Of a stretch of DNA of 63,006 bases, positions 3,052 through 56,336 are shown piece after piece. The stretch lies in the NCBI GenBank assembly GCA_022600975.1, contig JAHZJJ010000021.1:1-63006 (forward strand), read 5' to 3'. This DNA comes from Gammaproteobacteria bacterium (GTDB taxonomy: Bacteria; Pseudomonadota; Gammaproteobacteria; Pseudomonadales; Cellvibrionaceae). Within the stretch, counting starts at the first letter, position 1. The number at the start of each line of letters is the position of its first letter. Position numbers and translations under genes: made by a program. The notes below the pieces were generated by a model. It ran no database searches. It worked only from the letters and a program-made list of their open reading frames with translations, and was not told the DNA's origin.

Positions 3052-3286
3052 AGAGTTATCATCATCCAATGGGTGCATAGTTCAAGGTGTACTATTGTTT
3101 TGCTTTACAAGCTTGTGGAAAAGAAAAATTTAAGCTCTCTTAGGTTCCGGAAATTCTCTATCTAAGGGTTTGAAGCAAAAGTTTCACTTGACCTCCGGTT
3201 TAATAAAAGATAAAGCGCTTTGGTTGCTTCAATCTCTTCCATTCAGATACCCCCTCTTCGTCAGTGTAAACTCCATAAATCTTGAA

Positions 3287-3448
3287 CCTAGAAGCCGCAA
3301 TTGAAGCACGCGAGTCTGTACAAGTGCTTGATGCACTTGGCAGATTTTAAAAGTTCTCATCACCAATAAGGTGACCGCGAATTGTTAAAATTCGCCGTGC
3401 ATACCAATAACTGACACAGCTTTTGCGCGCTTAACTGCGGCTTCTAGG
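3287..3448. repeat. Dispersed palindromic repeat (MITE-like), copy A, 162 bp
   Basis: CCTAGAAGCCGCAATT ... AACTGCGGCTTCTAGG termini (15/16 inverted match); exact flanking direct repeat TTGAA (3282-3286 and 3449-3453); homologous copies elsewhere in window. Confidence 0.85.
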
Positions 3449-3530
3449 TTGAAAGCTTTTGGGTTCTTGAGCCTCCATACATCTATTTTAAAAATAACGA
3501 TATACTAAAGCACGTATTGCCTATACAGTT

Positions 3531-3551
3531 ACAAATCATTATCATTCGCAA
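3531..3551 (+). promoter_or_regulatory. Candidate Fur box upstream of TonB-dependent receptor
   Basis: acaaatcattatcattcgcaa; repeats of the ATCATT Fur hexamer ~40 bp before the receptor start. Confidence 0.6.
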
Positions 3552-3590: not shown

Positions 3591-5762
3591 GTGGATTCTT
3601 GTTTTGTTAAGCCGCTGGCGTTGGCTGTTTCTGCGCTGTCGATGGTGTCGTCTATTGCCCAAGAAAATGAAGTTGAGAGCGATAGTTCGAATAAAGATCA
3701 ATCACTGGAAACTGTGGTGGTAAGCGCCACTCGCTACCAACAAGATATCGATAAAATCCCCGGTTCAGTGACGGTGATTTCACAACAGGAACTTCAAACT
3801 CAGCTCAGTTTCAATGATGACCTGACTTCAGTATTGGGTAAATTGGTACCAGGCATGACGCCGAGTCGCCAGAAACTATCCAATCAAGGGGAAAATCTGC
3901 GTGGCCGCACGGCTCTGATTTTGGTTGATGGTGTACCGCAGAATAATCCTCTGCGCAATGGCAATCGCTATGGTTATCCTCTGGATTCATCAATGGTCGA
4001 GCGTATAGAGGTGGTAAGCGGCGCCAGCGCTGTTCACGGTATGGGGGCCACGGGTGGCCTCATCAATTACAAGACCCTCTCAGCGACTGAGGGTGATGAT
4101 AGTCGCGAAACTCTGGGCCTGCGAATTAGCGATAGCTTTTTAAGTGATGGGCTCAGCACCAAAGGTTGGTATCAGTTGCGCGAGTTTAACGACGATTACG
4201 ATCTGGTATTTGCCACTTCTTGGCAAGATCAAGGCCTTTACTACGATGCCAAAGACAATGCAATTGGCATAAATTCTGTTCAGGGGGAAACGCAAGATTC
4301 TGTGGCGAAGGACTATTTCCTCAAAATGGGCACTAACTTTAATGATCAGCGTCTTGAATTTTTGATCAATCGCTTTCAGTTGCACAGTAATCATGATTAT
4401 GTACCGGTTAGTGGTGACGATGAAAATAAAATTCCAGGTACGGTGGCTTCGGGTACCCCAACAGGTGAGCCCATTAACAATGAAGTCACCATTTACAGCT
4501 TGACCTATAGTCGTCAGGCATTGGCTGGGGGCACATTGACCGCACAGCTGTTCTATCAGGATTTTGAAGGGGTTTACGGTGAGTCCAATTGGTGGGCAAC
4601 GCCAGAGATTGAGCGGGATCAGGGTGCCATAGTATCGACTAAGCCGGGTATTAAGTTGGCGTACACTCAAGTTGATCTGTTTGGCAGGAATGACAATTGG
4701 GTAGTTGGCCTTGATCTTATTGAGGATGAGACTCAACAGTTGCTAAAGCAAACAGGTTTGGGCGTGACCCCGTTGCTGTCGTCGCTGAGTTTGGCACCCT
4801 TTGTACAGGGCGATATGCTGATCACTAATCGTTTGCGCCTTTCTGGCGGCCTGCGTTATGAAAGTATTCGGGTAAAGGCCAAAGATGGTCAGACACTCTA
4901 TGGTTATGGCCTTCTGGGTAATGATGGCAGTGAATATGGTCAAATCGACATTATCGGCGGTACCCAGGATTTTGATGAACTGATAGTTAATCTGGGTGCA
5001 GTTTACAATCTGACAGACCATATTAATGTGACTGGAGGTTACAATCAGAGCTTTGGGCTGCCGGATATTGGTCGTATATTGCGCGGCGAATATATAGGTG
5101 GCAAAGCCATACTCGATGCCGATGCTCCCAATATAGACTTCAATCTTATGCCCGCGGTTGAGCCAGTGGCAACCGACAATTATGAAATTGGCATCAATTA
5201 TACGGATGCAAAATGGTTGCTGACGGCCAGTACTTATTATTCAGTGGCCAAAGATGGTGCCAACTTGTTACTTAACCAGGGCGGTACCTTTGATGTCGTG
5301 CGCCAGCGCACTGAAATCCGTGGTACAGAATTTGTTGCTAACTACCAGCTAAGCGAACAACTGCAAATACAAGCGCTTTACTCGATGGTACAAGGCGAGG
5401 TGGACCGTGATGGCAGTGGGCGCGTGGACAGCGATATAGATTTGAAAAACCTGTCGCCGGATCGCATTATGCTTGGAGCAGATTACCACTATAACGATGC
5501 TATCACTGCAAGGCTGCAGGTAAACCATTTAAAAAGCCGTCACAATATGGATGTTGCCAGGGACCAGTTTTTTAAGGGTTATACGTTATTTGATGCTACT
5601 GTGGCTTACAATATGCGAGATTATGGCCGCCTAAGTTTCGCCGTTGAAAATTTCACCGATGAATTCTACATAAATTATTTCAGCCAAATTCGCAATGCCA
5701 ACGCTTATTATTTCTCTGGTCGGGGCCGTACCTTTTCGTTGGGCTATGAAATAAGCTTTTAA
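3591..5762 (+). CDS. TonB-dependent outer-membrane receptor
   Basis: GTG start; TonB box-like ETVVVSATR, plug PGSVTVISQQEL, C-terminal NFTDEFYINYFSQIRNANAYYFSGRGRTFSLGYEISF. Confidence 0.9.
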   Translation: MDSCFVKPLALAVSALSMVSSIAQENEVESDSSNKDQSLETVVVSATRYQQDIDKIPGSVTVISQQELQTQLSFNDDLTSVLGKLVPGMTPSRQKLSNQGENLRGRTALILVDGVPQNNPLRNGNRYGYPLDSSMVERIEVVSGASAVHGMGATGGLINYKTLSATEGDDSRETLGLRISDSFLSDGLSTKGWYQLREFNDDYDLVFATSWQDQGLYYDAKDNAIGINSVQGETQDSVAKDYFLKMGTNFNDQRLEFLINRFQLHSNHDYVPVSGDDENKIPGTVASGTPTGEPINNEVTIYSLTYSRQALAGGTLTAQLFYQDFEGVYGESNWWATPEIERDQGAIVSTKPGIKLAYTQVDLFGRNDNWVVGLDLIEDETQQLLKQTGLGVTPLLSSLSLAPFVQGDMLITNRLRLSGGLRYESIRVKAKDGQTLYGYGLLGNDGSEYGQIDIIGGTQDFDELIVNLGAVYNLTDHINVTGGYNQSFGLPDIGRILRGEYIGGKAILDADAPNIDFNLMPAVEPVATDNYEIGINYTDAKWLLTASTYYSVAKDGANLLLNQGGTFDVVRQRTEIRGTEFVANYQLSEQLQIQALYSMVQGEVDRDGSGRVDSDIDLKNLSPDRIMLGADYHYNDAITARLQVNHLKSRHNMDVARDQFFKGYTLFDATVAYNMRDYGRLSFAVENFTDEFYINYFSQIRNANAYYFSGRGRTFSLGYEISF

Positions 5763-17995: not shown

Positions 17996-20900
17996 ATGCC
18001 TAAACGCACAGACTTAACAAGCATTCTGATCATCGGAGCTGGCCCTATAGTGATCGGCCAGGCTTGCGAGTTCGATTACTCCGGCGCTCAAGCCTGTAAG
18101 GCTCTTCGGGAAGAAGGTTATCGGGTTATTTTGGTGAACTCCAATCCCGCTACCATCATGACCGATCCGGCAATGGCAGATGCTACCTATATCGAGCCGG
18201 TAGAATGGAAAACAGTAGCCAAGATCATTGAGCAGGAGCGCCCCGATGCCATTTTGCCCACCATGGGTGGACAGACAGCACTCAACTGTGCGTTGGATCT
18301 GGAGCATCAGGGAGTACTCACCGAATTTAATGTCGAACTCATTGGCGCAGATAAAAATGCCATTAATAAGGCCGAAGATCGCAACCTGTTTGACGAAGCG
18401 ATGCAGGCAATCGGCCTCGACACGCCACGGGCAGAAATTGTCCGTACCATGGAAGAAGCCAAGAAAATTCCCGAGATGTTCGGTTTTCCGGTAATTATTC
18501 GCCCGTCATTTACTATGGGTGGTTCCGGTGGTGGCATTGCCTACAATTGGCCGGAGTTTGAAGAAATCTGCAAGCGCGGGTTTGACCTTTCTCCCACGCA
18601 TGAATTGTTGATCGACGAATCATTGCTGGGCTGGAAAGAGTATGAGATGGAAGTGGTACGCGATAAAAACGATAACTGTATTATCGTCTGCGCAATTGAA
18701 AATTTTGACCCCATGGGGGTGCACACCGGTGATTCTATCACCGTAGCTCCGGCTCAAACGCTGACCGACAAAGAATATCAATTGATGCGCAATGCCTCGA
18801 TTGCAGTTCTGCGCGAAATTGGCGTTGAAACTGGTGGTTCCAATGTGCAATTTGGTCTCTGCCCCGAAAGCGGGCGTATGGTAGTGATCGAAATGAATCC
18901 GCGAGTTTCGCGCTCTTCGGCACTGGCTTCCAAAGCCACTGGGTTTCCGATTGCCAAGGTGGCTGCAAAGTTGGCGGTGGGCTACACCCTCGATGAGCTG
19001 CAAAATGATATTACCGGTGGCGCTACGCCGGCTTCCTTTGAGCCGAGTATCGACTACGTGGTGACTAAGGTGCCGCGCTTTACTTTTGAAAAGTTCGGCG
19101 AGGCAGATGCGCGTCTGACCACACAGATGAAATCTGTCGGTGAAGTGATGGCCATTGGCCGCACCTTTCAAGAGTCTTTGCAAAAAGCCCTACGCGGTTT
19201 GGAAGTTGGCTCGGTTGGTTTTGAAAACAGAATTGATCCACAGGAAGATGGTGCCGAGGAGCGTTTGCGGCGCGAACTATCGGTGCCTGGTGCCGAGCGC
19301 ATCTGGTATCTGGGTGACGCTTTCCGTATGGGTATGAGTGTCGAAGCGGTGTATGAGCTTTCAGCCATTGATCCCTGGTTTCTGGTGCAGATCGAAGAAT
19401 TAATCCGTATTGAGCAGCCGCTGAAATCGATGCCGATGTCGGGGCTTACAAAGGAACATATGCGCTTTCTCAAGAAGAAAGGCTTTTCCGACCGGCGCCT
19501 GGCAGATTTGCTGGGGGTAAGCCAGAAAACAGTGCGCGAATTTCGTCACAAACTGGGAGTGTTCCCAGTCTATAAGCGAGTGGACACCTGCGCTGCTGAA
19601 TTTGCCACTGCCACCGCTTATCTGTATTCCAGTTATGACGAAGAGTGTGAGGCCGTGCCCTCAGATAACAAAAAAATTATGGTGCTCGGCGGTGGGCCCA
19701 ATCGCATCGGCCAGGGTATAGAGTTTGATTACTGCTGCGTTCACGCTGCACTGGCGATGCGAGAAGATGGTTTTGAAACCATCATGGTCAATTGTAACCC
19801 GGAAACGGTATCGACCGATTACGACACTTCAGATCGTCTTTATTTTGAACCGGTGACCTTGGAAGATGTATTGGAAATTGTTCGATTAGAAAAGCCCGTG
19901 GGGGTAATTGTGCAGTTTGGAGGCCAGACGCCACTAAACTTGGCGCGTTTTCTCGCCGCTGAAGGGGTGCCGATTATCGGCACTACACCGGAGCAAATTG
20001 ATCGTGCAGAAGACCGCGAACGCTTCCAGCAAATGCTGATGCGGCTCGGTCTCAAGCAGCCGAAAAATGCCATTGTGCGTTCAGTGAATGAAGCGATTCA
20101 GTGTGCCCGGGAAGTGGGCTATCCACTAGTAGTCCGCCCCTCTTATGTGCTTGGCGGCCGGGCGATGGAAATCGTCTACAAGGAAGACGAGTTACTCAAC
20201 TATATGAAAGAAGCCGTGCAGGTTTCCGACGAAGCGCCGGTATTGTTAGATCGCTTTTTAAATTCGGCGATTGAAGTAGATATTGATGCAGTTTCAGACG
20301 GCACTGATGTTGTAATCGGCGGTATTATGCAGCATATCGAGCAGTGTGGTGTGCACTCTGGTGATTCTGCTTGCTCCCTGCCTCCCTACAGCCTTCCGGC
20401 TGAAGTACAGAATGTAATGCGCGAGCAGGTTAAAGCGATGGCGCGCGAGCTGGGTGTAATCGGGTTAATGAATACCCAGTTGGCCTATCAGGACGGTGAG
20501 ATTTACGTTATCGAAGTCAATCCACGAGCCTCGCGTACAGTACCTTTTGTATCCAAATGTATTGGCACTTCTCTAGCCAAAGTAGCGGCGCGCTGTCAGG
20601 CGGGGGTCAGCTTGCAGGCTCAGGGTTTTGATTGCGAAATTGTACCGGATTATTTTTCGGTCAAGGAGTCGGTTTTCCCGTTCAACAAATTTCCCAAAGT
20701 GGATCCCATTCTCGGCCCGGAAATGAAATCCACCGGTGAAGTGATGGGCATTGGTGAAACCTTCGCCGAGGCCTTCGACAAAGGCCTTATCGGCGCTGGC
20801 GATACGCTGCCCGAATCCGGTAGAGTGTTTATTTCTGTGCGCGATGTAGATAAAGTGGGGGTTGTGGATGTTGCTCGCGGGCTAGCTGAGCTTAATTTTG

Positions 20901-25412: not shown

Positions 25413-26177
25413 TTACAAGTCGAAACCAAAACCAAGGCTGCTGCCTACCTCGTTGTCTGCATAGGTGGCACCTACGCTAAAGCGAGCGCTGCTGCCTAGC
25501 GGGCGAGTGTACATAACGGCTCCGGCGGTCTCAGCTCCCAGGTGGCCAACACCCATAGACAGGCTGCCGACACAGTCGCGCCAGTTGTCGCAGCTGCTGT
25601 TGCCAGCGTTGGCAGCGGCGGCCATATTGGCCATAGCCATGGCGCCAATAGCATCTATTCGATCATCCACTCTATTGAATCTACGATTCATGTCTCCACG
25701 GAGATTGTTTACTCGGTTATCGAGGTTAGCAATATTTTTACTGTTGTTAGCAATGTTTTTACTGTTTTTAGTAATGCTTTTACTGTTTTTAGTAATGCTT
25801 TTACTGTTTTTAGCAATGAAAGACTTCGCAGGTGTAAACTCAAGGGCCTGATTTGCCTCTGTAAGCTCAAAGGCCTGATTTGATTCTGTAAGCTCAAGGG
25901 CCTGATTTGGTTCTGTAAGCTTAAAGGCCTGATTTGCTTCTGTAAGCTCAAGGGCCGCCTGATTTGATTCTGTAAGCTTAAGGGCCTGATTTGACTCTGT
26001 AAGCTTAGGGGCATTTAAGGTGGAGTCTTGTGCAAGTGGATCTCTAGCGAGGTCTGCCTGGGCGAAAGCTCCCAGCAATAAGCTGCTGCCCACCGCTAAG
26101 CTGCTGAGGGCTTTGAGGCCCATAGAAAGCGTGGACTTTTTTGATTTTTGCGTAGCATAAAATTTCTTAGACGGCAT
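25413..26177 (-). CDS. Short YadA-like trimeric autotransporter with two repeat classes
   Basis: Signal peptide, LTE(S/A/P)NQA 9-aa repeats, IxKNSKS/N heptads, YadA-like anchor ending EVGSSLGFGFDL; anchor resembles product of 1..513. Confidence 0.8.
   Translation of the reverse strand: MPSKKFYATQKSKKSTLSMGLKALSSLAVGSSLLLGAFAQADLARDPLAQDSTLNAPKLTESNQALKLTESNQAALELTEANQAFKLTEPNQALELTESNQAFELTEANQALEFTPAKSFIAKNSKSITKNSKSITKNSKNIANNSKNIANLDNRVNNLRGDMNRRFNRVDDRIDAIGAMAMANMAAAANAGNSSCDNWRDCVGSLSMGVGHLGAETAGAVMYTRPLGSSARFSVGATYADNEVGSSLGFGFDL
25741..25824 (-). repeat. 21-bp tandem repeats encoding heptad stalk (ITKNSKS)
   Basis: ctgtttttagtaatgctttta at 25762 and 25783 identical; flanking degenerate units at 25741 and 25804. 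Confidence 0.9.
25846..26010 (-). repeat. 27-bp tandem repeats (6 units, one expanded to 30 bp) encoding LTESNQALK-type repeats
   Basis: gcctgatttg-starts at 25846, 25873, 25900, 25927, 25957, 25984. Confidence 0.9.
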
Positions 26178-28607: not shown

Positions 28608-28747
28608 CCTAAAAACCGCAGTTGAGCGCAGGAAGCTGTGTAAGTTATTGGTGTGCATGGCGAATTTTGAAAAGTTCTATTGGCAGTTTACAAAGTTCAG
28701 ATTTGATGTTGATCACTTGAAGTGGAAAAACCGCTGTGGCCTGTAGT
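28608..28747. repeat. Dispersed palindromic repeat copy B (one conserved end, degenerate other end)
   Basis: CCTAAAAACCGCAGTTGAGCGCAGGAAGCTGTGTAAGTTATTGGTGTGCATGGCGAATTTTgAAAAGTTC matches the inverted end of copy A; distal end decayed. Confidence 0.7.
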
Positions 28748-42722: not shown

Positions 42723-42884
42723 CCTAAAAACCACAGTTGGATCAGGCAAGTTTGTGCAGGTTATTGATATACTTGATAAATTTTAATAGTTTTCATCATT
42801 GATAAGTTGATTAAGAACTGTAAAAATTCGCCATACACACCAATAACTTAAACAGCTTTTGCGCGCCCAAATAAAACTTCTAGG
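42723..42884. repeat. Dispersed palindromic repeat copy C, 162 bp, same orientation and length as copy A
   Basis: Shares AAAATTCGCCrTrCAyACCAATAACTkAmACAGCTTTTGCGCGC...CTTCTAGG with copy A. Confidence 0.8.
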
Positions 42885-50408: not shown

Positions 50409-50547
50409 CTGCATCGACTCAATGTTTTGAGAAATTGTGAAGGGTAATTATGAGTAAGCTTTAGGCGCCCAAGTCACCTCTTGACTACCTTCATCTCGTT
50501 TGCAACTGGATGTAAATAGCTACAATATACGAATATTGGCCTATAAT

Positions 50548-50698
50548 CCTAGAAGCCGCAGTTGGGCGTGTGAAAGCTGTGTAAAATGATGATTTTTATA
50601 AATTTTTGGTCACCTTATTGGTGGTGAGAATTTTTTAAGATTTGTCTGATGTATCAAGAACTTGTGCAGGCTTGCGTGACGCAACTGTGGTTTCTAGG
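50548..50698. repeat. Dispersed palindromic repeat copy D, 151 bp, inverted relative to A
   Basis: CCTAGAAGCCGCAGTTG...CAACTGTGGTTTCTAGG; exact flanking direct repeat ATAAT (50543-50547 and 50699-50703). Confidence 0.85.
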
Positions 50699-50791
50699 AT
50701 AATCCATTGAAATGCTAGAAGGCCAGTATAAATGGGCTCTACTGCTAGAAGGATCGGCAATCAACGAGCGTTTTAACGGAGCATAGCTTCC

Positions 50792-56211: not shown

Positions 56212-56270
56212 CCTAGAAACCACAGTCTGGCACGCAAAAGCTGTGTAGCTTATTAGTGTACCCGACCCAT
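56212..56270. repeat. Dispersed palindromic repeat copy E: solo end only
   Basis: CCTAGAAACCACAGTCTGGCACGCAAAAGCTGTGTAGCTTATTAGTGTACCCG matches conserved end of other copies; bracketed by TTAACTCTA at 56202 and 56271. Confidence 0.7.
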
Positions 56271-56336
56271 TTAACTCTACATAAACATACCCAAAGGTAT
56301 GCTTCAAGCATCATTTTAGCCTTCACGACTCAAAGG

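Follow-up and report, generated by a model that had tools for sequence, protein, structure and literature searches.

A probable miniature inverted-repeat transposable element with 5-bp target duplications in a gammaproteobacterial genome

Correia, RUP, and nemis are among the miniature inverted-repeat transposable elements (MITEs) of bacteria, and ERIC repeats are palindromic, intergenic sequences of 100 to 200 bp for which no transposase is known. The repeat analyzed here is likewise palindromic, intergenic, and within that size range, although its ends appear unlike those of ERIC. Bacterial MITEs are reviewed in PMC10969869, and MITEAba12 is treated in PMC6382973. Like such elements, the repeat is short, gene-less, intergenic, and multicopy, with inverted ends and a short target duplication; unlike them, it has ends of its own, a palindrome at a fixed distance from one tip, no autonomous relative that could be found, and a near absence from plasmids and phages.

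The type copy and other copies in the window

The window, which is the whole 63,006-nucleotide stretch of DNA analyzed, contains the type copy of the repeat, a near-palindromic unit of 162 bp with inverted ends CCTAGAARCCGCAGTTGA (CCTAGAAGCCGCAATTG / CCTAGAAGCCGCAGTTA, the latter on the reverse strand). The unit runs from CCTAGAAGCCGCAATTGA to TTAACTGCGGCTTCTAGG and is abutted on each side by an exact TTGAA, so that the length, inverted ends, and flanking duplication reported in the initial annotation were all confirmed. The features of the type copy and the basis of each are as follows.

3287..3448, + strand: type copy of the probable MITE, 162 bp, near-palindromic (sequence, genome-wide search, profile search)
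3287..3304, + strand: left terminal inverted repeat (TIR) CCTAGAAGCCGCAATTGA (sequence, TIR pattern count)
3431..3448, − strand: right TIR, reading CCTAGAAGCCGCAGTTAA on the − strand (sequence, TIR pattern count)
3282..3286, no strand: target duplication TTGAA, left (flank comparison)
3449..3453, no strand: target duplication TTGAA, right (flank comparison)
3360..3374, no strand: central palindrome TCACCAATAAGGTGA, ∼74 bp from both tips (family alignment; 73 to 78 bp from one tip across the family)

Seven occurrences of the TIR pattern were counted in the window where 0.47 would be expected, and no shuffle reached seven. Four further loci had been assigned to the family, and all are real by profile match (E values from 3e-32 to 5e-7); they are unequal, however, and those at 28608 and 56212 are mere end fragments.

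42723..42884, + strand: diverged but full-length copy of 162 bp; the flanks ATTGA/GTTAA are a decayed duplication (profile match, flank comparison)
50548..50698, − strand: 151-bp copy with an internal deletion and an intact ATAAT duplication at 50543-50547 and 50699-50703 (profile match, flank comparison)
28608..28681, − strand: 74-bp end fragment, model positions 89-163 (profile match)
56212..56274, − strand: 63-bp end fragment, model positions 101-163 (profile match)

The type copy lacks coding capacity, as had been claimed: the longest ORF overlapping it or ending inside it is 45 aa. A single strand folds along the whole length of the unit, at −72 kcal/mol compared to −38 kcal/mol in shuffled sequences (z of −9). 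The neighboring genes are a POT-family transporter gene on one side and a TonB-dependent receptor gene on the other. Between the repeat and the receptor gene, which lies at 3591, a Fur-box-like sequence, acaaatcattatcattcgc, was noted by eye at 3531-3549. Elsewhere in the window, an ORF (25413-26177, − strand) contains 21-bp and 27-bp tandem repeats at 25705-26012, which would encode a repetitive protein segment.

Copies, targets, and an empty site

The genome that contains the window is a 2.8-Mb draft in 179 contigs, and the additional genome-wide copies anticipated from the window were found. There were 47 blastn matches to the repeat, and the TIR end pattern matched 123 times, compared to twice for a reversed control. 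A profile built from 38 copies gave 142 matches with both strands counted, and the matches listed resolve into at least 64 separate loci, of which 37 have matches of at least 145 bp.

The 5-bp target duplication proved consistent among these copies. The flanks are identical in 17/43 copies with paired ends (0.14% expected by chance) and agree at 4 of 5 positions in 12/43 (2% expected); in 9/43 they agree at two positions or fewer, and decay or nesting may explain the duplications absent from some copies. All 17 exact duplications read N-T-N-A-N, with T second and A fourth, and 16/17 read W-T-N-A-W. Of 33 insertion points, 2 are within a long ORF, compared to 183/400 random positions in the window. 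In a tree of 38 copies, the 25 full-length copies from this genome form a single clade (99/96) with star-like branches, and copy L002 sits near its node; copies from G053 (UBA3067) and two congeners group separately, with one G053 copy placed beside the congeners. The own-genome copies radiate from one ancestor, which is a burst within the lineage. The burst looks old, with a divergence from the common ancestor of several percent to 10% in most copies, and it is probably no longer active.

Insertion into a recognizable target was observed in a Rhodoferax MAG (L318), where a 234-bp family member splits the C-terminal part of an IS1634 transposase gene. Deleting the element together with one TTCAA restores a reading frame of 584 aa that is collinear with ISAzo6 and two other intact IS1634 transposases up to the last residues. 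What this locus demonstrates, exact insertion accompanied by a 5-bp duplication, applies to the family and not to the type copy in the window.

The repeat is thus short and non-coding, has TIRs, is flanked by a duplication of constant length, occurs in dispersed and mainly intergenic copies, and has a 234-bp relative with an empty site. Because of the inverted ends, the dispersed copies, the 5-bp duplication, the own-genome burst, and the L318 empty site, we consider it, with a probability of about 0.92, a MITE that makes a 5-bp target duplication and would be moved in trans. The copies, the duplication, and the precise empty site in the relative also support the initial proposal of a non-autonomous MITE-like family. 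As far as could be checked, the MITE is new, and a literature search for the end sequence found no paper. An end, a target, and an internal site are now defined for a repeat family of many Proteobacteria, so that the moving enzyme becomes searchable and annotation becomes feasible for many intergenic palindromes of MAGs that had no explanation.

Distribution of the family and a palindrome at a fixed distance

An exact scan of GTDB genomes for the 18-bp end found at least 119 stretches, and those listed come, by record title, mostly from Burkholderiales, Rhodocyclales, Gallionellales, Methylococcales, and other Gammaproteobacteria. The elements among the stretches listed are mostly 233 to 236 bp long, with others of 110 to 391 bp, and have common ends and a common target signature. 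The ends define one family across many beta- and gammaproteobacterial genomes, and MITE-rich species include Rhodoferax, Accumulibacter, Denitromonas, and UBA3067-like ones. Direct homologues of 163 bp were found in two records named Pseudomonadales NORP299 and Deltaproteobacteria Dive100. Within the order of the window's genome, the repeat is rare: it matched 4/59 genomes, apparently including that genome, and exact ends were present in 2/397. Among 72,556 plasmids and 50,697 phages, the family is all but absent; the plasmid search gave one clear family copy, and all 8 matches in viral contigs are single ends with no partner.

Polaromonas genomes contain the family (L254, L262, and a plasmid of strain P1-6), and Mattes et al. 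(2008; cited in PMC10969869) reported a MITE from Polaromonas sp. JS666. The JS666 element may belong to the 234-bp family of betaproteobacteria, so it is uncertain whether the betaproteobacterial branch is new. G053 harbors a second subfamily of ∼235 bp with the inner end GGGCCGGCC (L063, L154, and L157), which resembles the window type in nothing but its ends and the fixed palindrome. Four other G053 copies (L041, L042, L043, and L045) carry small inserted palindromes inside the MITE, consisting of GCGTAAGCGCCGTATACGGC and a GGCGCT-type hairpin.

The internal palindrome was counted in 162 distinct elements no shorter than 100 bp as TCACC-N4-6-GGTGA at 9/10 positions or better. It is recognizable in 120/162 elements, and in 116 of these 120 it starts 73 to 78 bp from one tip, irrespective of total length. 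The fixed spacing is seen across ∼70 sources, with fewer independent cases because several loci come from the same genome. Counted from the palindrome-near tip, positions 1 to 23 carry 1.4 to 2 bits each, and positions 25 to 75 mostly carry 0.1 to 0.6 bits. A spacer of near-random sequence but constant length suggests a spacing constraint, such as two sites under one protein complex, and the constant end-to-palindrome spacing yields a testable prediction on how a transposase would bind. The palindrome is the exact center of the 162/163-bp form, and both arms therefore have an equal length of 73 to 78 bp; in averaged folds of the 234-bp form, there is a third arm, a separate long hairpin.

Mode of mobilization and alternative readings

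Under mobilization in trans, a DDE-type transposase encoded at another place would bind both ends and probably also the TCACC-N5-GGTGA palindrome 73 to 78 bp from one end. The enzyme would then excise or copy the element and insert it into AT-rich, mostly intergenic DNA that has been cut with a 5-bp stagger. No gene-bearing partner was found at ∼290 end-bearing places, and the search proposed initially, for a transposase gene bounded by the same ends, found none in the window's genome, in G053 (UBA3067), or among the 119 further stretches listed from other species. Paired ends are at most ∼430 bp apart in the window's genome, G053, and two MITE-rich betaproteobacterial MAGs, and the remainder are solo ends or contig-end fragments. 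Of ten ORFs scanned inward from solo ends, eight encode ordinary host proteins and two have no Pfam match. The partner may have been lost, have divergent ends, or be encoded away from the elements.

The window's genome contains an intact IS1380-family transposase of 447 aa with ends CCTGAATCCGTAGCTTCA (C91:8223-9554). That an enzyme of this type is the partner seems improbable to us. With one gap allowed, the alignment of the IS1380 ends to the MITE ends was beaten by just 11/2000 shuffles, but this similarity (p ∼0.006) is weak because eleven insertion-sequence ends were compared. Related IS1380 elements begin CCTGAATCCG and can give 5-bp duplications, yet the duplications AGTTA and ATATT are incompatible with W-T-N-A-W, and MITE-rich genomes such as G053 have no IS1380-type transposase above the cut-off. 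The ISAzo40-like group in particular starts CCT(A)GAA.CCG and has a 5-bp duplication in some copies, but its ends require a one-base gap, its target is another one, and its members are not bounded by MITE ends. An IS1634 (ISAzo6-like) partner, considered because a 1693-bp element (L240) has an IS1634 gene bounded by perfect MITE ends and a TTTAA duplication, was rejected as highly implausible. ISAzo6-type elements are bounded by ends of a different sequence, CCCGAGTTCGACAGTT, and in the relatives checked they make a 6-bp duplication. The IS1634 in L240 lies between element positions 84 and 1426, the rest being an ordinary MITE, which makes it a nested insertion.

Three observations count against a MITE: no autonomous partner was found, the family is scarce on plasmids and phages although these are rich in ordinary insertion sequences, and some own-genome copies have no matching duplication. 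An alternative is a structured repeat that selection maintains for a function, as an RNA hairpin, a terminator, or a protein-binding site, and whose mobility is only historical. Such a repeat would account for the mostly intergenic position, the palindrome at a constant distance from one tip, and a long hairpin maintained by paired changes. In the 163-bp alignment, with a structure from averaged base-pair probabilities of individual sequences, paired changes occupy 88 cells compared to 41 ± 5 in shuffles (0/500). This excess could reflect selection for pairing, but relatedness or template switching between the arms could also yield it, and the RNAalifold consensus by itself has only 7 pairs. 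No Rfam covariance model matches the repeat at its gathering score, the copies decay freely and include many fragments, and most congeners lack the repeat. We therefore regard selected structure as an unlikely explanation, and one that is compatible with a MITE in any case. A more specific form of the MITE reading, put forward tentatively, is a chromosome-bound, proteobacteria-wide non-autonomous family whose unrecognized transposase, not carried between the ends, would read an end and the palindrome 73 to 78 bp away, a logic like that of REP elements with their dedicated transposase, except for the 5-bp duplications.

The window's genome also contains a second palindromic repeat of ∼150 bp, with ends GAGCCTGTCGGACTTAAC and located between CTAG tetranucleotides; none lies in the window.

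C42:18226-18374 (L092): second repeat
C175:12224-12372 (L120): second repeat
C114:22180-22330 (L109): second repeat
C145:6528-6680 (L114): second repeat
C90:2415-2579 (L102): second repeat
C113, ∼20190-20260 (L029): second repeat

Three copies of this second repeat use the terminal CTAG of a MITE, and one is nested inside a MITE.
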